64,000 nt of DNA. Source: Segetibacter koreensis DSM 18137 (GTDB lineage: Bacteria > Bacteroidota > Bacteroidia > Chitinophagales > Chitinophagaceae). The notes under the pieces are model-generated. The model did not search any database. It was not told the DNA's origin and saw only the letters and a program-made list of their open reading frames with translations. Below, piece after piece: positions 7,627-20,047 of this stretch. The translations under genes were made by a program, and so were the position numbers. Numbering within the stretch: position 1 is the first letter of the stretch; each line of letters opens with the position of its first letter. The stretch covers positions 158,144-222,143 of the forward strand of contig NZ_KB893381.1 of assembly GCF_000374045.1 (NCBI RefSeq), written 5' to 3'.

Positions 7627-10600
7627 TTAGAATTGAACTGTCAAAGAACCTCCAAACAAGCGCGATGATGGAGACTGATAGGCACTACTTAGTCCGTACG
7701 TGTTACCAGTGGAAGAATAGTTAAATTCTGGATCTCCCCACTGGTTAGATTTAGGAACAAAAAGAAATAAATTTCTTCCTACAGCACTAAGGGTTAATCT
7801 TTTAATAACCTTTCCATTACCAATCCAACGCTGAGGTATATTATAAGATATATTAACCTCACGAAGCCGCCATGAAGCAGCACTTGCATAATAGTTAGTC
7901 CCTATACCAGTATTGGTTGCAGAGCCGGTCCAAAATCCATAATTACCATCTTGTACCAGAATATTTGTGTTAGGGACATACTTAGCGCCGTCATAATAAA
8001 CAGAATTTGGAAAAACAAATCGTTGACGGCCATATTCTGCACTTCGTGCAGAAATACCTGCAAAATCTTCGTCACTTCCCAAACCTGAGTAAAAGTTATG
8101 GCCGCTTTTGTAATCCCAGGTCATACTTATAGAGAAATTACCTACAGAGTAAGAAGGTGTAAAACCTAATACCCAAAGGGGAAGACTTCTACCTTTATTA
8201 ACTAATTCCGCAGCTTGTGAAGGCATTCCCGTGACTGGGTCTACTATAACTTTTCCCGTTGTCGAATCTCTTAAATAATCTGTAAGCTGAAAGGCAAATG
8301 CAGGCCTCCCCACAATTGCTATATTATTAGCAGTAGGAGAACTTACTGAATTTTGTATAAAGTAATTATTTCCTCCTACAACAACAGGTATATTATTTAA
8401 AGTATTAGTAACCTCATTATTGTTATAGGTCGCGTTAAATTTAAAATCAATTCTACCCTTTCCTATTGAGAATAAAGGACTTAAACCTAGATCCATCTCC
8501 ACTCCATAGTTTTTAAAACTAGCTGCGTTCGCAAGACCAAAGGTATAACCTGTAGTAGCTGACTGTGAGACCTGTAATATTTGGTTATTACAGTTTTGAT
8601 AAAAATAGGTCGCGCCTACATCTATCCTGTTTTTAAGAAGTCCAAGCTCAACTCCTACCTCTTTTGTAATAACAAATTCTGGCTTTAAATTGGGACTAGG
8701 AATTGTTGCATTAGCTGTGTAGCCAACTACATTTCCGTAAGGAAACCCCGAAGGCGTTATACTATTATTAGACTGTTCAAAAGTTGCCTGAAGTGCATAT
8801 GGACTAATATTTACATTACCGGACTTCGAATAAGCAGCTCTCACCTTTGCATAATTAATAACTCCATTATTTTTAATTGAAGGTATTGCGTCAGAAAGAA
8901 TAAAAGAAGCATTAGCTGCTGGATAAAAAAATGAACGGTTTTGCTGTAGCAATCTGCTATCCCAATCATTTCTTCCAGTCAATTCAAGAAAGGCATACCC
9001 CTTATATCCTAACCCCAGTGTACCATAAGCAGAGAGCAAGCGCGTTTGAACATTATAGTTATAATTTCCGTCAGGATATAAATCGTTATTTACAGTTCCA
9101 TAGGTAGGTACATTTGCATCGCCACTTCTTGTAGAAACATTATACAAGAAAGGCACTACCAAATTAGTTCCTCCTACAGCCACATCTTTAGACCGGTTTT
9201 GACGTATTGTTCCACCTGCCAAATACTTTATTGTGAAATCTTTATTTATATCACGCTCTCCACTTAAGAAGTAATCAAAATTTATTCTTGACGTAAAGTT
9301 TTCGTCATCTGCCACTGCCCCCGGCCGATTGCTAAACTGTGTAGGGTTTCGATTTTTAGCAGCCCAATCTGTTACAACAACTGGGGCAGTTGAGCTTTTC
9401 GAATTTGCAAACGCTAGATTTGAGCTTATTTTCACTGATGCTTTGATCCATGGAGCAACTTGATAATTAACGTCAATGTTTCCAATCAAATCATCTTCCC
9501 TGCCCACTGTACGCAAATTGCCAATAGCCCAGTAAGGATTAACAGCATACTCGTTATAATAATTTGAATATTGGGCAAATTTGCTATTTCTCCAATCTTT
9601 ATAAGAAATGAGGGGAACATTATTAGCCGTTTGCATAACAAGGAAAAATAAACTACCATTATAGGAGGGAGATAAAGTAGGTAATGCATTTTCATTGATA
9701 ATGTCATAGTTCTGCAATACATAGTTCAATCCGTAATTAACCGATAGCTTGCCATAAGTTTTTCCTCCATTAAATCTAAAACTTGTTCTCCTGTTTTTAT
9801 CATCAGGTGTAAGCCCTTTTATATTAGCATCGTCGATGCCTGCATAAAAATCCTGGCCTGATAGAGAAATCGAATTTTGAAAAGTTAACCCGGTGTTCCA
9901 AAACTTAATTTTGTCTTTATAATGAGCATTAGTATATGGAAAATTCTGGATTGAACCATCTTCAAGAGCAACCCCAATTGGTTTCATAGTACCATCGAAC
10001 GCCGGGCCATATTGCTGGTTTTCATAAGGAACGTATCCAAAGTTTCCATATTGATCTAAAACTTCGCCAGCACCAGCTCCAAAAGATTTCTGCAGTTTAG
10101 GAAAAAAAGCAACCCTGGCCAGTTGTACAGACGAAGTATAGGATACAGTAAGCGCATTCGCTGTTCCTCTTTTCGTAGTAACCACTATAACTCCATTAAC
10201 AGCATCAGGACCATACACAGCGGCAGAAGCAGCACTTTTTAAAATTGTAAGTTCCTGTATATCAGAAGGAGGAATGGATGACAGATATCCTAAAGGAGTA
10301 GGAGCACCATCTACAACTAACATTGGCTGATTATTACCTGTAAGCGAGCGGATACCTCTAATGTTTATTTTAGCATTTTCAAAAACACTGCTATTTGTTG
10401 TGGTAACGGATAATCCTGATACCTTACCATTTAATGCCTGCTGAACGTTAACTGCCCTCCCCTGGGTAAGAACTTTGTTACTAACTGAAGTTGTTGCATA
10501 CCCTAACTCTTTTGCCTGTCTTCTCACACCTAAAGCTGTAGTTACAATTGCTTCTGAAAGATTTTGGATTTGCCGTGCTAATGAAACAGAATAAGTGGTA

Positions 10601-10857
10601 CCAGTAGAAACTTTTATTTCTTTTGCCGGAGTGCCTACTGCTGATACAACCAATACATCACCCGTTTTAGCACTTATTCTAAAATTTCCCTCTAGATCAG
10701 CTGAAGTACCCTTATTTGTTCCTTTTATCACCACAGAAGCGCCACTTACGGGCTGTCCATTTTCATCAAGTACTTTTCCTGTAATTTCCCGTTGTTGCGC
10801 AATTGCCAACGTTGAATAAAACATTAGCAATATAACTCCTTGAAATATTTTTTTCAT
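7627..10857 (-). CDS. SusC/RagA-family TonB-dependent outer-membrane transporter
   Basis: This active importer draws energy from TonB. The 1076 residues comprise a signal peptide ending near ALAIAQ, a carboxypeptidase-D-like regulatory domain (about 22-105, REITGKVLDENGQPVSGASV), a plug domain (about 115-230, with LVVDGAP and VNGVIVVTTKRG), and a beta-barrel ending in the aromatic GGSLTVQF. It heads a three-gene operon with susD and a DUF1735 lipoprotein. No sigma/anti-sigma pair or hybrid two-component sensor is adjacent. Its N-terminal third resembles the SusC at 12747-15983, so the two operons are probably related. Confidence 0.95.
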   Translation of the reverse strand: MKKIFQGVILLMFYSTLAIAQQREITGKVLDENGQPVSGASVVIKGTNKGTSADLEGNFRISAKTGDVLVVSAVGTPAKEIKVSTGTTYSVSLARQIQNLSEAIVTTALGVRRQAKELGYATTSVSNKVLTQGRAVNVQQALNGKVSGLSVTTTNSSVFENAKINIRGIRSLTGNNQPMLVVDGAPTPLGYLSSIPPSDIQELTILKSAASAAVYGPDAVNGVIVVTTKRGTANALTVSYTSSVQLARVAFFPKLQKSFGAGAGEVLDQYGNFGYVPYENQQYGPAFDGTMKPIGVALEDGSIQNFPYTNAHYKDKIKFWNTGLTFQNSISLSGQDFYAGIDDANIKGLTPDDKNRRTSFRFNGGKTYGKLSVNYGLNYVLQNYDIINENALPTLSPSYNGSLFFLVMQTANNVPLISYKDWRNSKFAQYSNYYNEYAVNPYWAIGNLRTVGREDDLIGNIDVNYQVAPWIKASVKISSNLAFANSKSSTAPVVVTDWAAKNRNPTQFSNRPGAVADDENFTSRINFDYFLSGERDINKDFTIKYLAGGTIRQNRSKDVAVGGTNLVVPFLYNVSTRSGDANVPTYGTVNNDLYPDGNYNYNVQTRLLSAYGTLGLGYKGYAFLELTGRNDWDSRLLQQNRSFFYPAANASFILSDAIPSIKNNGVINYAKVRAAYSKSGNVNISPYALQATFEQSNNSITPSGFPYGNVVGYTANATIPSPNLKPEFVITKEVGVELGLLKNRIDVGATYFYQNCNNQILQVSQSATTGYTFGLANAASFKNYGVEMDLGLSPLFSIGKGRIDFKFNATYNNNEVTNTLNNIPVVVGGNNYFIQNSVSSPTANNIAIVGRPAFAFQLTDYLRDSTTGKVIVDPVTGMPSQAAELVNKGRSLPLWVLGFTPSYSVGNFSISMTWDYKSGHNFYSGLGSDEDFAGISARSAEYGRQRFVFPNSVYYDGAKYVPNTNILVQDGNYGFWTGSATNTGIGTNYYASAASWRLREVNISYNIPQRWIGNGKVIKRLTLSAVGRNLFLFVPKSNQWGDPEFNYSSTGNTYGLSSAYQSPSSRLFGGSLTVQF

Positions 10858-11210
10858 TTTGCCTATAAATTTTTATAAAATACTTATGTGCTGAGCACTT
10901 TCTGTAAGAAGATAAATATAGGGATGTGCTTACATGACATATTACTCATACCAAATGCTGCATCTTATAAAAAAATGATTTAATATCGCGGGGAACATTA
11001 ACCAAGGTTGGGCACGTAATAAAATTATTACCCTTGTCAATTATCTAACAACTACACAGCAATTGTTTTTTCCTAAAATTAGCAGATTGAGGCGTGGTAA
11101 TTCTAAGATTTTTATAAGAGAAGCCAACAAGCAATTTGCAAATTCCAGAAACTGTGATTACAGAATTTAAGATTAAGGGACAGATTCTTTTTCAGAAAAA
11201 AAGTTAAATG
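10858..11210. other. Region upstream of the first SusC gene
   Basis: This AT-rich stretch carries no gene and presumably holds the susC promoter. A TATATTTA element on the minus strand near 10916-10923 resembles the -7 box, but no TTG element lies at the right distance, so no promoter is called. Confidence 0.4.
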
Positions 11211-11245
11211 AAAAAGAGGCTACCTCGGTGAGATAGCCTCTTTTT
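11211..11245 (-). terminator. Intrinsic terminator of the second SusCD operon
   Basis: AAAAAGAGGCTA (11211-11222) pairs perfectly with TAGCCTCTTTTT (11234-11245) around an 11-nt loop. A-rich and T-rich flanks give a U tract in the minus direction. It lies just past the susD stop at 11269. Confidence 0.85.
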
Positions 11246-11268
11246 CAGAATAAATCTTTTACTATTCC

Positions 11269-12726
11269 TTAATACTTATCAAACCATAACTTTTGAGTTA
11301 TCTGATCTTTTCCCACCGCCGAGGACGCTTTCTGGTAACTTCCCTTATTTAAATTTTGCTCAACTACAGGATAAGTCATCCTGGTAATTACAGCGGGAGT
11401 TTCCTGATCTGAAAAAAGAGCGCCAGTTGGAACCACTAACTTGGGATAATCTAAACGTCTCCATTGTGTCCATGCGTCGTAACCTCGATTGTATAATGCA
11501 ATCCATGACTGAACACCGATTTTTTCTTTATAATCTCCTGCCGCAGTTGTGTATTTTACAATGGATTGAGATCTATAAGCTAAGGCATCAGCTGCAGTTC
11601 CACCCCATTCTTCAATGCTTGCATCAATAGCATTATTATAATGATCTTCTGCAGTACTTCCTACAGCAAATCCTCTTTCAAGTGCTTCCGCTTTTAAAAA
11701 TTCCATTTCAGAATAGCTAAAAAACGTATGAGGGAATTCGGGCTGACTTAAAGTAGAAGAAGGAGCGGAAAAATTATTAAATGTAGCTCTAACTCCTGGT
11801 GTTTGACCTATATAGAAACTATCTGTTGTGATATCCTTGTTGAAATAAAAGGGAAGCCTAGGGTCATTATAAGCTTTTAAAGTATCTATAAACGGTTTAG
11901 CTCCCACGAAATCATGTCGACCGCTTTGTATCAGATCTTCCCATACCGGATTGGTATTTGGAGGCGAAGCCAAATAATGCATTTTTATATTCTCATTATT
12001 GCTTAGAATAACATTAGGAGCTGAAGCTTCAACCATGGTTTTTGCAGTAGTGGGATCTACATCTGCCACCAACATTCCCATCCTCATTTTTAATGAATTT
12101 CCAAATCTTTTCCAACCATCTATATCACCATTCAATATTACATCTGCAGAACCATAAGCACCAGCAGCAGGATCAAGTGCACTCAAAGCAGCATCGAGCC
12201 TGGCAGAGATTTTTGCAAACACCTCAGCAGCATTGTCATATGCAGGTTGCAGATTTTCAATATCAAGCGCCTCTGTATATGGAATATCACCAAAGCTTGT
12301 AACTAAAGTATAATAAGAATATACTATCAATATTTCATTGATAGCTTTACGATTCTTAATCTCTTCAGCAGTTAGATTCAATGTTTCTTTATCTGCCACA
12401 GTAGAAGCTTCGGTTAAATCTTTAATGACATCTCTGTACATATGAGCCCACCAAAAATCACTAATACTTCTTTGATTTAAATTGTATCTTGTTTCATCTC
12501 TATAAATTGTCTCCGTCCAATATTGAACAAAAAGCCTGAAGTTATTTGTATTAACATTTGTGCTTGCCATTCTATCGGAAAGGTTAACCGAAGCGTTGGA
12601 AAACAGATTGGCTGATGAAACTACAGCGGGCCGGGTTGGATTAATATTTAAGTCTGTTATGTTTTTCTTACACGACACTAATAAAAAAGTGCTTATAAAA
12701 AAACATGAATACAGTATTTTTTTCAT
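11269..12726 (-). CDS. SusD/RagB-family outer-membrane lipoprotein
   Basis: A 485-residue lipoprotein with the signal MKKILYSCFFISTFLLVSC and acylated cysteine 19, followed by KNITDLNINPTRP. It belongs to the SusD-like_2 branch, with FGDIPYTEALD and the C-terminal WIALYNRGYDAWTQWRRLDYP, which matches the family's helical core. It is encoded 20 nt after its SusC partner and ends in front of a strong terminator, so this operon has only two genes and lacks the DUF1735 protein of the neighbouring locus. The substrate is unknown. Confidence 0.92.
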   Translation of the reverse strand: MKKILYSCFFISTFLLVSCKKNITDLNINPTRPAVVSSANLFSNASVNLSDRMASTNVNTNNFRLFVQYWTETIYRDETRYNLNQRSISDFWWAHMYRDVIKDLTEASTVADKETLNLTAEEIKNRKAINEILIVYSYYTLVTSFGDIPYTEALDIENLQPAYDNAAEVFAKISARLDAALSALDPAAGAYGSADVILNGDIDGWKRFGNSLKMRMGMLVADVDPTTAKTMVEASAPNVILSNNENIKMHYLASPPNTNPVWEDLIQSGRHDFVGAKPFIDTLKAYNDPRLPFYFNKDITTDSFYIGQTPGVRATFNNFSAPSSTLSQPEFPHTFFSYSEMEFLKAEALERGFAVGSTAEDHYNNAIDASIEEWGGTAADALAYRSQSIVKYTTAAGDYKEKIGVQSWIALYNRGYDAWTQWRRLDYPKLVVPTGALFSDQETPAVITRMTYPVVEQNLNKGSYQKASSAVGKDQITQKLWFDKY

Positions 12727-12746
12727 GTATAGTAAGTTTAATTTCT

Positions 12747-15700
12747 CTAAAGTTTGATTTTTACATTAAAGCCAAAAGAACGAACGGCAGGATAGCTACC
12801 TATTTGAATTCCTTGCAAATTTCCTGCACCAAAGCTATCCTCCGGATCTGCATAAGGTAAATTTTTATGCAAAATAGCAAGGTTACGTCCTACTAAAGCA
12901 ACATCAATGCCTTTAAAAAATTTATTTCGAAACATTTTAGCTGGTAATGAATATCCCAAAGAAAGCTCACGCAATTTTACATAACTGGCATCATAAGCAA
13001 ATCTCTTATCGGGTGATGAAACATAACTATCAAAAGAACCGTAATCTTCGATACTGGCCCGAATTGTGTTAGGTTTACCGTCAGCGGTAACACCTTGCCT
13101 AATAATCCCACCACTTTTACTATCATTTGTAAGAGGGCTTCTTATAGGATTACCTAAATCATTATTAACTGCTGTCTCTTCATAGAGTCCTCCTGCTAAT
13201 GCATAATACATATCAGTAGAGAACACTGAACCACCCTGCCGTACATCAATAAGACCGCTAAGAGACACTCCTCTATAAGTAAACCTGTTGCTAACACCAC
13301 CAATCCAGTCAGGATTGACATTACCAATAGTGATATTATTTGTTGGGGTAATCATGTAATTCCCATTTTCATCAACAGTTTTTTGGCCATTAGTATAAAT
13401 GTAATCAGTTCCATGTATTGTTCCATAAGGCTCGTTAAGTGAAGCATTTAAAGTTATACTTCCCTGGAAAGATCCTAAAACAATATTATCTATATCGCCA
13501 TAAAGCTTGGTTACTTTACTTCTGTTTCGTGTCCAGTTAATATTAATATCCCATGAAAAGTCAGGTGTTTTAATTGGAGTGCCATAAACTGACAACTCAA
13601 ATCCTTTATTTTGAACAGTTCCTGAATTTACATATTTTCTGGAATAACCTGTAGCAGTAGATACTGTTAGTGGAAGAATTTGATCTACGGTCTGTGCTTT
13701 ATAGTATGTTGCATCAAAGCCCAACCTGGTTTTGAAAAAAGCCATTTCCAATCCTACTTCAAAACTTTTGGTCCGTTCAGGTTTCAGATTTGGGTTATTT
13801 TTATAACCGTTAACAGAAAATAACGCATTACCATTAAAAGAAGTTACTTCCTGCCCAGAATTATCATCAATGTCACTTACGTAATAATCATTGACAGTAT
13901 ATAAAGGAGCATCGCCGCCTACCTCGGCATAATTGGCTCTTAATTTACCATAGCTTAACCATGTAGGTTTTATTAACTGAGAGAATACAAAGCCGGCGGA
14001 AACAGAAGGATAATAGTAAACATTATTTGCTTCAGGTAATGTAGAGGAACGATCTCTACGAATAGTAGCATCTAAAGTATAAGTGTTTTTATAAGAAAAA
14101 GTTCCACCTGCAAATACGCCTTCAACTCTTTTTCTTCCTTCAAATTCAAGCGGCGGAGCCGGAGCATTAATGGAATTAGCTATAGTATAAAGTTTAGGTA
14201 CACCTAACCCACCATTCGTATTTGCGTCAATATTTGATCTATACTGTGTTCGTGTATTAGATCCTAGAAGCGCTTTAATATTTATATCACTAGTAATGTT
14301 CCAATCAGCATTAGCTATCAAATCATAATTTATCTCATTATAATTTTGATTGTATCTCCTGTAGAAAGGAACACCAACACTGGTTACAGCTTTTCTTTCC
14401 TGTTCTAATTCAGAATAGCTGTCAAGGGATACTCTTCCTAAGATATTCAACCAACTTACAGGTTTGTAATTGAGATAAACATTTCCAAAATACCTGTCAC
14501 GGCTGTCTGATTCATAGCTTTCATACCGTGTAAAATAAGGATTATCCCAGAATTCAGGTTGAAGTTCACCACTGGGGCCGTAGTGCTGATTCCAAGTTAC
14601 GTTTTGTCGATTTCTAAAATAGGCATCTTTTAGTTCCTTTAAATCTACATTCACCTCCCACCATTGACGAAAATTTGTCATAAGATTTAAGGCGTTGGCA
14701 CCATCGTATCCTGTTCCAAAACGCCCCAGACCATTAATTCTTGAGTAATTTGCTGATCCACCTGCAGTTAAATTATCCGTAATATTATAAGTAGCAGACA
14801 CATTAAGTAAATCTTTGTTTATACTACTATTTGGTAGTACACCTTTTTCATTATTCCGGGTATATCCGAGTGCAAATGTACTTCTATCGTTCCCAGACTG
14901 AAGAAAAACACTGTTATTCAGAGACACTGGCTTTATAAAGAAAGTGGAAGGATCGTTCGCTGCAGCTACCCAAGGCGTAGCTTTTTTATAATTTGGAGAA
15001 GTTGGGTCAAATGAATGCCATTGGTAAACCATTAAGTTCGGATTAAAAGCAGTACCCCAGGAAGCATCATCATAAGTTGGGGCTATTTTGTCAGGAACTC
15101 CATCACCATTCACATCAGCCTCGTCAAAATAAGAGCCGTAACCTGCACCGTATTTTTTTTGATACTTAGGAAAAGTATTTCTTAAAATAGAATTTACGGT
15201 TACACCGGAATTTATAATAATTCCCAAACCTCTTTTGCCTTTCTTAGTTGTAATTAATATTACTCCATTACTTCCTCTCGATCCATAAAGAGCACTTGCA
15301 GCAGCTCCTTTCAAGACAGTTATATTGTCAATATCGTCAGGATTAATATCCGCAGCAGCATTGCCGTAGTCGTATCCTCCACGCCCGGTTGTCTGGTCAA
15401 GAGTATTATTATTACCATTATCAAAAGGAACCCCATCGACAACAAATAAGGCCTGGTTACTACCTGTAAGAGACTTTGATCCTCTTAACAAGACGTTTGT
15501 AGAACCTCCCATAGTATTAGGCTGCCTTATTTCCAAACCAGATACCTTTCCAGATAGATTTTGAACAAAATTAGAAGTTCTTGTTTTGCTGACATCTTCG
15601 CCTGTGACTGTTTGGGCAGCATAAGGAACCTGGTTACGGGTTCTTCTGATACCTAAGGCAGTAACCACCACCTCTGAAAGATTTTCACTTTGTCTTGTCA

Positions 15701-15983
15701 ATGAAACTGAAATAGAAGAACCTGCGGGAACCCTTACTTCTTTAGAAGGTATACCTACCGCAGAAATTACCAGTACATCACCGGTTTTTGCATTAATAGT
15801 GAAATCTCCACTTGCATTAGCAGAAGCTCCGGTATTAGTACCTTTAATAAGGACAGATGCTCCACTTACAGGTTGCCCTGATTCATCTAAAACTCTTCCT
15901 GCAATTTGCCGGGTTTGTGCGATTCCCAGCATAACTACAAGCATGAGCATTGTAAAAAGTGATAAAAATTTTCTCATGTGCAT
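12747..15983 (-). CDS. SusC/RagA-family TonB-dependent outer-membrane transporter
   Basis: The 1078 residues start with a signal peptide (MHMRKFLSLF...LGIAQ; the third codon is also a possible start), a regulatory beta-sandwich domain (about 25-105), a plug domain (about 112-250) with LFVVDGVPFDN and SNGVILITTKKG, and a long barrel ending in SFGFNVKIKL. It forms a channel with the SusD at 11269-12726. Its N-terminus shares the QPVSGASV-IKGTN pattern with the SusC at 7627-10857, pointing to a tandem duplication of the pair. A 176-nt upstream gap separates it from the helix-hairpin-helix gene. Confidence 0.95.
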   Translation of the reverse strand: MHMRKFLSLFTMLMLVVMLGIAQTRQIAGRVLDESGQPVSGASVLIKGTNTGASANASGDFTINAKTGDVLVISAVGIPSKEVRVPAGSSISVSLTRQSENLSEVVVTALGIRRTRNQVPYAAQTVTGEDVSKTRTSNFVQNLSGKVSGLEIRQPNTMGGSTNVLLRGSKSLTGSNQALFVVDGVPFDNGNNNTLDQTTGRGGYDYGNAAADINPDDIDNITVLKGAAASALYGSRGSNGVILITTKKGKRGLGIIINSGVTVNSILRNTFPKYQKKYGAGYGSYFDEADVNGDGVPDKIAPTYDDASWGTAFNPNLMVYQWHSFDPTSPNYKKATPWVAAANDPSTFFIKPVSLNNSVFLQSGNDRSTFALGYTRNNEKGVLPNSSINKDLLNVSATYNITDNLTAGGSANYSRINGLGRFGTGYDGANALNLMTNFRQWWEVNVDLKELKDAYFRNRQNVTWNQHYGPSGELQPEFWDNPYFTRYESYESDSRDRYFGNVYLNYKPVSWLNILGRVSLDSYSELEQERKAVTSVGVPFYRRYNQNYNEINYDLIANADWNITSDINIKALLGSNTRTQYRSNIDANTNGGLGVPKLYTIANSINAPAPPLEFEGRKRVEGVFAGGTFSYKNTYTLDATIRRDRSSTLPEANNVYYYPSVSAGFVFSQLIKPTWLSYGKLRANYAEVGGDAPLYTVNDYYVSDIDDNSGQEVTSFNGNALFSVNGYKNNPNLKPERTKSFEVGLEMAFFKTRLGFDATYYKAQTVDQILPLTVSTATGYSRKYVNSGTVQNKGFELSVYGTPIKTPDFSWDININWTRNRSKVTKLYGDIDNIVLGSFQGSITLNASLNEPYGTIHGTDYIYTNGQKTVDENGNYMITPTNNITIGNVNPDWIGGVSNRFTYRGVSLSGLIDVRQGGSVFSTDMYYALAGGLYEETAVNNDLGNPIRSPLTNDSKSGGIIRQGVTADGKPNTIRASIEDYGSFDSYVSSPDKRFAYDASYVKLRELSLGYSLPAKMFRNKFFKGIDVALVGRNLAILHKNLPYADPEDSFGAGNLQGIQIGSYPAVRSFGFNVKIKL

Positions 15984-16159: not shown

Positions 16160-18223
16160 TTAAAAATCGTACAACACCTGGATTTTTACTTCACTTCTTT
16201 TATTTCCTCGTATTTGATTCAGGCTCGCCCCAATCAAACTTTTATTTGTATAAATTGTCTGGGCCCATCTGAACCAAATTGCCATTTTTTTACTAAAATC
16301 ATAATTTACGTTTAGATAATAACGGAGACCTTGTCCTGTAAACTGAGGTATGGAATAGCTGTATAAAACATCACTTTCAAAAGCATACAGACCGCTTTCT
16401 GAACTATCCGTTTTGAAATACTGCAACCTTCCGTTTAATGACAGAGGTTTGTTGAAAGGTTTATACACCGCTTCAAAATAACTTAACAGCCCGTGTTCCA
16501 TTCTGTCTTTTTGCTGGGTATCAAACCATAATAGTTCAATTCTTTCGCGTAGTGTTACTGCTTTAGTTATAGCATTAGAAGATTGAATGCGCCAATTTAT
16601 TCGGGGCACGGTATATACAGGTATTGTTGGAAGATCTGACCGTGAAACATTAATAGCTTTATTTTCATTTCGTAAGCGGCTATATAACTCAAACTGTTTA
16701 TTAGGTTTATAAGTTAGCTGCAACAAATATTCAGTGCCGTTGCTGGGTGCATCTACCCGGTAGCGCAACCAGGGAAAGCTGAAGATATCAGCATAGGCAT
16801 CTATTTTTAAAAAAGTAACTGGCTTAATGCTTATTCCTGTAAACAGCCCTTTCTCATTTGTAGGCAAAGTGCTTTCAGTAAACGCATTACCGTTTAGAGC
16901 CTGGTAAGTTTTTTCTATGTTTCTATATAAAACTGAGGCATCAACCTTTGGGTCAAGACTCGCTATGATACCACCGATAAAAGCTTTTGATTTTCTTTTA
17001 TCCATTGCCGCTTCCCCAAAAAAATGAAAATTGCGAAAAGTATAGCTATAGTCCAGACTATAATTGTACCACTCCTTTCCCTGTATAGCATACTGATTAT
17101 AAGGTTGAACATCACGAATCAAAGGAATCGAAAATTTAAAGGCAATAACATTTAAGCCAACATGAAAACTATTTTTATTGTAAGAAACATTGCCTCCTAA
17201 AGAAGCTTGTGTCACTATATTTTTCTTTGCATTTTCATTAGGAGTACGATGATATCCTGAAGTTGCTATTGATGAAACAAAATCCCTATTCATTTGTGAG
17301 GTATCGTCATTAAAAGTTGCATCAAGTTTACGAACAGATGCAAAAGCAGTTACACTGGTGTTTTTGCCGCCTGCTGTTATACCTGCACCACGCATAAAAT
17401 TGTATTCTCCTGCCGAATTGTAGGGTCGTAAAATATCTGCCTGCCTTTTAATCGCCGTTATATCTGCACTTTTCTTAAAAGCAAGGCTTTGCCACTGTAT
17501 TAGCCCCTGTCCGAGGTTTACTGCAAAATCTCCCAGGGCGAGCATTTTTACAGCGCCTAATTTTCTTGCAAACAAATGGAACGAATAGAAATCAAAACCA
17601 TATTTCTGTTTTCCCTTAAAAAATGCTTCACCTGCATCTTTATCTCCTGTTAGGCCGAATTGCAAAAGATTGCGATATACATATTTATACCTGAAAAAAA
17701 GTCGTTGAGCACTTCCCATGTATCGGTTTGAGACAGTATCATTTCGTGTAAATCCATCGCTTTTTTCTAATAGTTGTTGTGCCCTGAAAAGAAAGGAATG
17801 CTGCCCTGCTACCAGTCGGTCTTTAATATCTGCAGAAAAAGCTACTGCATTGCCCACCCGTATATCCGGTAAAATCTGTTGTATAGTCTCCAGGTCCAAT
17901 AAGGGCACAGCTTGTAATTCATAAATACTAATAAAATTTCCCAGTAATCTTCTGTATCTTAACAAACTTTGAATTTGCAAATCAGAAAGGATTCTTAAGT
18001 CACGCAGTTCATTTTCCTGCGCGGTATTTATGTTGATAGGATTTCGATGAAGTTGAACCAATTGCTGCAGGTAACTATCATCTTCTGTTTCGGCTTCCTG
18101 CTGTTCGGTAATATTTTCCAATTGCTGCTCTGCAATACTTCCGGGTTGAGTTGGGCCTTCCTCTTGTGAATAAGCATAAGAGCTCCAAAAAGCAATTAAT
18201 AATATTACTGCTTTTTTCCTCAA
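16160..18223 (-). CDS. Exported helix-hairpin-helix protein with C-terminal beta-barrel
   Basis: A signal peptide (residues 1-19, ending SYAYS) precedes an acidic linker (EEGP...ETEDD), then two ComEA-like helix-hairpin-helix motifs at about 61-122 (NPININTAQENELRDL; FISIYELQAVPLLD). The remaining 560 residues alternate hydrophobic and polar positions like an outer-membrane barrel and end in KIQVLYDF, with a terminal aromatic. The family is known in Bacteroidota genomes but its function is not established. In other proteins the HHH fold binds DNA non-specifically; in an exported protein it would face the periplasm or exterior. The start is a TTG that overlaps the stop of the upstream barrel gene by four bases (TTGA), so the two are translationally coupled. 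Confidence 0.75.
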   Translation of the reverse strand: MRKKAVILLIAFWSSYAYSQEEGPTQPGSIAEQQLENITEQQEAETEDDSYLQQLVQLHRNPININTAQENELRDLRILSDLQIQSLLRYRRLLGNFISIYELQAVPLLDLETIQQILPDIRVGNAVAFSADIKDRLVAGQHSFLFRAQQLLEKSDGFTRNDTVSNRYMGSAQRLFFRYKYVYRNLLQFGLTGDKDAGEAFFKGKQKYGFDFYSFHLFARKLGAVKMLALGDFAVNLGQGLIQWQSLAFKKSADITAIKRQADILRPYNSAGEYNFMRGAGITAGGKNTSVTAFASVRKLDATFNDDTSQMNRDFVSSIATSGYHRTPNENAKKNIVTQASLGGNVSYNKNSFHVGLNVIAFKFSIPLIRDVQPYNQYAIQGKEWYNYSLDYSYTFRNFHFFGEAAMDKRKSKAFIGGIIASLDPKVDASVLYRNIEKTYQALNGNAFTESTLPTNEKGLFTGISIKPVTFLKIDAYADIFSFPWLRYRVDAPSNGTEYLLQLTYKPNKQFELYSRLRNENKAINVSRSDLPTIPVYTVPRINWRIQSSNAITKAVTLRERIELLWFDTQQKDRMEHGLLSYFEAVYKPFNKPLSLNGRLQYFKTDSSESGLYAFESDVLYSYSIPQFTGQGLRYYLNVNYDFSKKMAIWFRWAQTIYTNKSLIGASLNQIRGNKRSEVKIQVLYDF

Positions 18224-19074
18224 ATTTTATCTTCTTTCTTTAATTTAAACAACAGTAGCAATCCGGGAGTGAAGCCAAGCTGGGGATGATAAGAAGCGCT
18301 TACATCAATTCTTGCAAAACTCAATTGTAAGCCAACAGCAGCATAACTATTACTGGTGAGGGTTGAGACGCCGGTTCTTATAAAGATATTTTTTTGAAAG
18401 TTGTATTGAAAGCCTGCATTTATACTTACCGGCTGATTTTGCTGTTTTACGACTTCTGCACTTACAAACGTCGTTTCAGAAACTTCATACCCGATACCCA
18501 AGCGATAAACAGATGCTAATTGCTCCCTGGTATTTTTGCCTAATTTACTACTGGCAGGATTGTATGTGTGAAGACCAGCATGCAGCTTATCAGTTAAATG
18601 AAAAATCAAACCGGCTTCAAAATTTATTGCAGTTGCACTGCCATAACCGGGAATTCGAAGAGAATAATAATTAAACTTTGTACCAATATCTATGTTTCTG
18701 GTAACTTTTCTACCGTATAGAATACCTAATTCATTTTCGTTAAATTCTGCAGAGCCAAAATAATCTGCTTCAAAACCAAACACACCTGATGATGCCGGAA
18801 TGGCGACAACAGCAGCATAATTACTTAATTCTTCAAGTAAAAATCTTTTTTCGCCATACACAGCAAACCCAGCCGTTTTTAGTTGTGCCAATGAAGCCTG
18901 GTTAGAAGTAGCTGAAAAAATATCAGAAAAGTTTTTGCTGTAGGCGCCGAGTGCACCATACTGTACCGACAGAGGTTGTTTAATCACCTGCGCGTTCGCA
19001 GTACTTATCGCAACCATGGTAATTAACAGGTTGAGCAATTTCAATCGGCTAGCATTAAGATTGGAAAGTAGCAA
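18220..19074 (-). CDS. Outer-membrane beta-barrel protein, PorV/PorQ-like in outline
   Basis: A 284-residue protein with a signal peptide ending ISTANA-Q and a pattern of short amphipathic strands (LSVQYGALGAYSKNFSDIF, VFGFEADYFGSAEFNE, IDIGTKFNYYSL) typical of 14-stranded FadL-like barrels such as PorV and PorQ of the type IX secretion system. Exact family membership is uncertain. No ATG is available: the frame opens with TTG at 19074, and a TTG at 19044 would give the compact signal MKLLNLLITMVAISTANA. It is coupled to the helix-hairpin-helix barrel gene by a four-base overlap and is divergent from folD across 85 nt. Confidence 0.65.
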   Translation of the reverse strand: MLLSNLNASRLKLLNLLITMVAISTANAQVIKQPLSVQYGALGAYSKNFSDIFSATSNQASLAQLKTAGFAVYGEKRFLLEELSNYAAVVAIPASSGVFGFEADYFGSAEFNENELGILYGRKVTRNIDIGTKFNYYSLRIPGYGSATAINFEAGLIFHLTDKLHAGLHTYNPASSKLGKNTREQLASVYRLGIGYEVSETTFVSAEVVKQQNQPVSINAGFQYNFQKNIFIRTGVSTLTSNSYAAVGLQLSFARIDVSASYHPQLGFTPGLLLLFKLKKEDKI

Positions 19075-19159: not shown

Positions 19160-20047
19160 ATGTTACTACTTGATGGAAAAATTGCTTCGCAATCAGTTAA
19201 ACAAAATTTGACAGAAGCGACTAAAAAATTATTGGAACAAGGAAAAAGAGCGCCCCATCTTGCCGCTATATTAACCGGAAATAATGGAGCAAGTGAAACT
19301 TATGTCGCAAGTAAAGTAAAAACTTGCAGCGAAATAGGATATAAGTCCACACTTATACGCCTGGAAGAAACTGTTGAAGAACAGGAACTGTTGAGAAAAA
19401 TAATAGAACTGAATAATGATGACTCAGTAGATGGAATTTTAGTTCAACTACCACTGCCAAAACATATCAGCGAAGCAAAAGTTATCAATAGCATTAATCC
19501 CGATAAAGATGTTGATGGTTTTCACCCCGTAAGTGTAGGGCGGATGGTTCAAGGGCTTGATACCTTTATTCCCGCAACGCCATACGGCATTATGCTCATG
19601 CTTGAGCACTACAACGTGGAAACGAAAGGAAAACATGCGGTTGTAATTGGCCGAAGTAATATTGTTGGCCGCCCTATGAGTATTTTACTTAGCAGCAATC
19701 TGCCATATGGAAATTGCACTGTTACTATTTGTCACAGCCACACAGTCAATTTAAAAGAAATAACACTGCAGGCAGATATTATTATAGCCGCGCTTGGAAG
19801 GGCCGAATTTGTAAGGGAAGACATGGTAAAAGAAGGCGCCACTGTAATAGACGTAGGCATAACCCGGGTAGATGATGCTAGCGCGGCAAAAGGGTACCGT
19901 ATAAAAGGTGATGTTGATTTTGCCAATGTTGCTAAAAAAGCATCTGCCATTTCACCTGTTCCTGGAGGGGTGGGACCAATGACAATTGCTGGTCTTATGA
20001 AAAACACTATGGACGCTTATATAAGAAGAAATTTATCCATAGAATAA
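19160..20047 (+). CDS. folD: Bifunctional methylenetetrahydrofolate dehydrogenase/cyclohydrolase FolD
   Basis: This enzyme interconverts 5,10-methylene-THF and 10-formyl-THF using NADP in one-carbon metabolism. The 295 residues include the substrate-site region with [12 protein letters not shown] (the lysine of the YxxxK motif), [10 protein letters not shown], the conserved DKDVDGFHP, and the Rossmann signature [12 protein letters not shown], ending with [19 protein letters not shown]. All core motifs are intact. It is monocistronic, divergent from the barrel protein and convergent with GH65. Confidence 0.97.

Follow-up and report, generated by a model that had tools for sequence, protein, structure and literature searches.

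What does a gene pair do that encodes, in a member of the Bacteroidota, an outer-membrane barrel carrying a helix-hairpin-helix (HHH) module together with a second barrel protein? The question is raised by a locus of Segetibacter koreensis DSM 18137, located in a stretch of 64,000 nucleotides (the window) that was analyzed as a whole. Both genes lie on the minus strand, the partner gene (18220..19074, 284 aa) being followed by the HHH-barrel gene (16160..18223, 687 aa), and the stop of the first overlaps the start of the second in the four bases TTGA (18220..18223). An earlier note on this DNA had described both open reading frames and the overlap, and its coordinates are exact.

The HHH-barrel gene is forced to start at TTG, because an in-frame TAA is situated two codons upstream. 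The partner gene has two candidate TTG starts (at 19074 and 19044) but lacks an ATG from which its signal peptide would be retained. Thus, the TTG starts proposed earlier were confirmed. The accompanying suggestion of a low-expression setting found no support: the exact 4-bp overlap was observed in 18 of 49 pairs, with ATGA in 15 of them and TTGA in 3. Hence TTG is not a trait of the family, and its role as a conserved low-expression signal was rejected. The TTGA overlap itself likely reflects translational coupling of the partner and HHH-barrel genes. Promoter and terminator scans gave results no better than chance.

The divergent neighbor of the pair is folD (19160..20047, plus strand), which keeps this position in Chitinophagaceae (24 loci) and is probably functionally outside the pair. 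In 14–17 loci of this family (e.g., L083:733-4585), folD, queE, a gene for an OmpA/PD40 protein resembling PorE, and dprA follow each other in a conserved order on the strand opposite to the pair; this order is not kept in the window. Directly downstream of the pair, positions 7627-15983 of the window are occupied by two tandem SusC-like genes with a SusD-like gene in between. Many relatives in Chitinophagaceae likewise have a SusC/SusD set after the pair, but a gap intervenes (176 bp in the window), and the arrangement is seldom conserved outside the family; the set was therefore rejected as a part of the unit.

The 687-aa protein starts with a Sec signal peptide (residues about 1–20, ending in ...AYSQ; 18164..18223, minus strand), recognized in the sequence, with Q20 conserved at a level of at least 90% and a helix at residues 2–13 of the model. 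An acidic linker separates it from an (HhH)2 domain (residues 61–122; 17858..18043, minus strand), predicted to be periplasmic, which matches HHH_3 (PF12836) above the gathering score (E=1.9e-7) and, in profile comparisons, the ComEA structures 8dss and 8dfk. The ComEA-like HHH motifs of the earlier note are thus present, and the two form one (HhH)2 unit instead of separate domains. The C-terminal part (residues about 141–687; 16163..17803, minus strand) is predicted to be an outer-membrane beta-barrel of 24 strands ending in a C-terminal Phe (AlphaFold model, pLDDT 91.8, pTM 0.89).

When strands of the model are counted from the periplasmic N-terminus, all short turns (2–6 residues) would be periplasmic and the long loops external, which is typical of outer-membrane proteins. 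Conservation is distributed unevenly: of the 70 top-ranking positions, 28 belong to external loops, 33 to strands, 6 to the HHH domain, and none to periplasmic turns. Hydropathy parity assigns an inward orientation to 28 of the 33 strand positions, none of them more than 8 residues away from the external end. G198, E199, R434, E457, and G578 are invariant in the barrel family; near-invariant charged residues include K195, D196, D232, E404, D479, R599, and E616; and family-wide motifs include KDxGE, GQGLxxW, GxHRTxxE, NExGxYxG, and TDSYxSRxYxYE. The conserved outer lumen and external loops suggest that a specific site for binding or gating faces the exterior, and the six top positions in the HHH domain indicate that this domain is under selection as well. 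A TonB plug domain was matched in none of 67 family members; with 24 modeled strands and no plug, the protein does not appear to be a TonB-dependent transporter, which has an N-terminal plug and a 22-strand barrel.

The partner also has a signal peptide, and its AlphaFold model (pLDDT 92.7) forms a barrel of 14 strands. Its fold matches are FadL and PorV of the type IX secretion system (T9SS), the best TM being 0.72 with PorV 8gl6_F, and the model thus points to a 14-strand barrel of the FadL/PorV fold. By sequence, it matches PorV_fam (E=2.1e-6, 27.5 bits) under the NCBIfam cut-off of 90 bits, as does the best score among the partner members listed (84.1). BamG was rejected as an identity of the partner, a single weak match being found among 50 members (E=0.002). 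The earlier claim that both proteins are exported barrels thus agrees with the predicted structures.

How widespread is this arrangement? A search with the single HHH-barrel sequence matched 219 of 296 genomes of the Bacteroidota phylum, and a barrel-only profile matched 234/296, nearly always in a single copy. The latter count is a lower bound, as divergent copies in genomes G076 and G130 were missed by both searches, and the genome sample being uneven, percentages of barrel-positive genomes are only rough. In the window's own family, Chitinophagaceae, 27 of 61 genomes are barrel-positive. The largest barrel-positive group outside the class is family f17 (at least 63 positive genomes), identified as Chlorobiaceae because the chlorosome protein CsmA is present in all four genomes tested. 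Chlorobiaceae retain a single-copy barrel near-universally, even in a genome of 1.6 Mb. The barrel family is ancient and has a broad distribution.

Conservation of the gene pair across Bacteroidota had been proposed as a check in the earlier note, and the pair proved to be syntenic across many genera: a PorV-like gene is localized near the barrel in 49 of 70 loci, directly upstream in 47 of them and within three genes in the other 2. The profile detected no partner in 9 of 10 Chlorobiaceae tested or in genomes G305, G286, and G294, all of which are barrel-positive; hence the partner is not obligatory. No conserved operon partner was observed across three Chlorobiaceae loci, where the neighbors include ScpB-like and RluB-like genes.

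In genome G037 from the same family as the window genome, the pair and an S1/P1-nuclease-like gene (L084:5676-8404 and L166:13198-14100) contain in-frame TGA codons (8, 14, and 6). These genes are free of TAA, TAG, and frameshifts, and several TGA codons occupy plausible Trp sites. TGG is used in neighboring genes, and TGA seems to serve as the stop of some genes; RF2 is present, and tRNA-Trp(CCA) is the sole Trp tRNA found in a tRNA list that is incomplete (no tRNA-Glu). The TGA codons may reflect gene-specific TGA reading or odd pseudogenes.

The distribution bears on one explanation, namely, that the large barrel is a porin or uptake channel for a specific solute, the pairing with the PorV-like gene reflecting shared regulation only and the HHH domain serving as a periplasmic plug or spacer. 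The fold matches of the barrel are indeed large transport barrels (MtrB, TonB-dependent transporters, AlgE), its patchy occurrence in Chitinophagaceae fits a niche-dependent nutrient function, and it is also found without the partner. On the other hand, near-universal single-copy retention in Chlorobiaceae, down to the 1.6 Mb genome, is unusual for a solute porin, and the tight 4-bp coupling in 18 loci and the failure to find a TonB plug domain also count against it. We consider this explanation unlikely.

The HHH domain raises the question of DNA handling, which the earlier note had inferred from it. In Vibrio cholerae ComEA, the GIG hairpin of HhH1 and the lysines K62/K63 are needed for DNA binding, while R71 is probably structural (PMC3879209). 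Mapped by motif onto the barrel family, these contacts correspond to columns 78–80 (GIG), 82–83 (K62/K63), and 91 (R71). A ComEA-type (HhH)2 domain is recognized by PF12836 in 63 of 67 family members. Nevertheless, GxG is found in hairpin 1 of none of the 67 and in hairpin 2 of 6, and a lysine or arginine occupies the K63-equivalent position in none and the K62 position in 8. The R71 equivalent is retained in 62/67 members. The family has thus kept the fold but not the residues that contact DNA. The mean net charge of the domain in the barrel family is slightly acidic (-1.2); that of stand-alone ComEA-like HHH repeats from the window genome and its relatives is +1.3, with a wide spread and a small sample. 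At one locus (L121:5067-6812) the HHH domain is absent and the barrel, the partner, and a PorD neighbor are all present, which makes it a natural test of HHH dispensability.

On a second contig of the window genome (L158:1363-2376), we observed a ComEA-like protein of 337 aa with an N-terminal membrane anchor, HHH repeats, and an intact GIG, which is probably the true competence HHH protein of this genome. It occurs in 56 of 61 genomes of the family irrespective of barrel presence, and its layout is like that of the HHH protein required for transformation in Riemerella, with the HHH at residues 236–301 (PMC8459023). Identity with this Riemerella protein, RA0C_RS02645, was rejected for the HHH-barrel protein given that position of the HHH.

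An outer-membrane DNA-uptake channel of Bacteroidota and Chlorobi, with the HHH domain acting as a tethered ComEA, would explain the relation of the HHH profile to ComEA. Judging by width, a 24-strand barrel could admit duplex DNA; dprA is situated five genes from the pair in 14 Chitinophagaceae loci, and transformation of Riemerella does depend on an HHH protein (PMC8459023). Three observations make such a channel very improbable. Firstly, the residues that ComEA needs (PMC3879209) are missing from hairpin 1 and from the K63-equivalent position throughout the family and are rare in hairpin 2. Secondly, the domain carries a net negative charge. Thirdly, the Riemerella protein differs from the barrel and resembles the separate 337-aa protein, which is present with or without it. 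On these three grounds, DNA uptake through the HHH domain was rejected. Lack of conservation of the DNA-contacting residues, which the earlier note had named as grounds for refutation, was observed, and its DNA-handling proposal is not supported. As the ComEA-like match could mislead annotators, the name "DNA-uptake protein" should be avoided.

A link to the T9SS is suggested by a different neighbor. At 20 of the 40 loci outside Chitinophagaceae, the divergent neighbor is a gene for a protein of about 300 aa (at position -2 in 17), and both representatives tested match NCBIfam T9SS PorD well above the cut-off. The order porD, PorV-like gene, HHH-barrel gene is also seen in the more divergent genomes G076, G130, G212, and G085; in G153, porD adjoins the barrel gene, the PorV-like gene between them not being scored. 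PorD binds SprE/PorW in the T9SS translocon (PMC10994853, PMC8754138), and hence the porD linkage is suggestive of a T9SS connection. Genetic linkage to T9SS genes is thus observed outside Chitinophagaceae and not in the window genome, where PorD and SprA are located on other contigs.

The phyletic distribution is at odds with an obligatory connection. SprA is absent from at least 66 barrel-positive genomes, i.e., at least 63 Chlorobiaceae as well as G062, G286, and G294; PorD is missing in each of the seven Chlorobiaceae tested and in the same three genomes. Conversely, about 29 genomes of family f5, which has the strongest SprA matches, and 6 of family f4 contain SprA, and the barrel was not detected in them. 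Since the barrel occurs in SprA-less genomes and is missing from the SprA-rich f5, the T9SS is not its sole setting, and the barrel was rejected as an obligate T9SS part.

By a looser reading, the pair would be a T9SS accessory that, for example, receives, anchors, or shuttles a secreted substrate; the PorV-like protein would be the shuttle and PorD a functional neighbor. The PorV fold of the partner, the weak PorV_fam and PorQ scores of many partner members, and porD in half of the loci outside Chitinophagaceae and near the barrel in the five more divergent genomes are all consistent with this, and PorV/PorP-type barrels act as shuttles (PMC12618676). The barrel is, however, retained in Chlorobiaceae and three other genomes free of SprA and, where tested, of PorD; it is undetected in the SprA-containing genomes of f5 and f4; the window genome keeps PorD and SprA apart from the pair; and the barrel is unmentioned in passages of T9SS papers. 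We regard such an accessory as rather improbable. Of the T9SS role offered by the earlier note, the PorD neighborhood in many lineages stands, whereas an exclusive association with T9SS-bearing genomes does not.

Our preferred reading, held tentatively, is that the gene pair may well encode a two-barrel outer-membrane device whose core function is independent of the T9SS. Computation supports the strand number and fold class, the deduced topology, the pattern of conservation, the synteny and spread, and the loss of DNA contacts; barrel–barrel contact, periplasmic docking, and transport are inferred by analogy. With the conserved working site formed by the outer half of the lumen and the long external loops, the 24-strand barrel would most likely act at the cell surface as a receptor or channel with a specific substrate; DNA is unlikely to be that substrate. 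The partner, whose translation would be coupled to that of the large barrel on a common mRNA, would most likely dock beside the large barrel, by analogy with the PorV–SprA and BamG–BamA pairs. A FadL-family barrel accompanying a larger one is known from BamA–BamG (PMC12578637), and SprA–PorV is a further precedent (PMC10994853, PMC8754138). The N-terminal HHH domain would hang in the periplasm and most likely bind another protein or shut the inner mouth. Such a protein-docking or gating module has precedent in non-DNA HHH folds, Pfam matches to T2SS GspK and PsbU being found among the members. A more far-reaching version, possible and at present doubtful, is that the pair represents a third barrel–barrel machine of Bacteroidota and Chlorobi that predates or is independent of the T9SS, has a separate substrate, uses the HHH domain for docking in the periplasm, and was later tied to the T9SS beside porD.

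No earlier description of the barrel was found in the open-licence literature of PubMed Central, and no paper was found that assigns a function to the paired barrels, in agreement with the earlier note. Kept as a single copy by most of the Bacteroidota sampled and by almost all green sulfur bacteria, and with charged residues that are invariant in its outer lumen, the barrel is a promising candidate for an overlooked envelope function. A likely reason for the oversight is that the barrel is undetected in f5, the family with the strongest SprA matches, which is probably Flavobacteriaceae, home of the usual laboratory models.

Among known systems, the best PDB fold match of the large barrel is MtrB, the barrel of the Mtr electron conduit (E=2.3e-12), but the TM is only 0.41 at 9% identity, and the large barrel has no Pfam MtrB family match. 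TonB-dependent transporters and AlgE are likewise large outer-membrane transport barrels; no plug domain was found in the present barrel, and the TM values by query length are 0.25–0.40. ComEA and the ComEA-like HHH proteins of Bacteroidota share the (HhH)2 fold and the periplasmic side; unlike them, the present HHH domain is fused to a barrel, lacks the GIG hairpin and the lysine pair, and is not basic. BamA–BamG also combines a FadL-family barrel with a second barrel, to which the former docks; the present large protein has an HHH domain and no BamA family match, and its partner is only weakly BamG-like (1/50, E=0.002). In SprA/Sov–PorV, again, a large barrel in the outer membrane of Bacteroidota works with one of the PorV/FadL fold, and porD often adjoins the present pair. 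SprA has 36 strands compared with the 24 predicted here, and no sequence relation was found between the two; the present barrel, moreover, occurs without SprA and carries an extra HHH domain.
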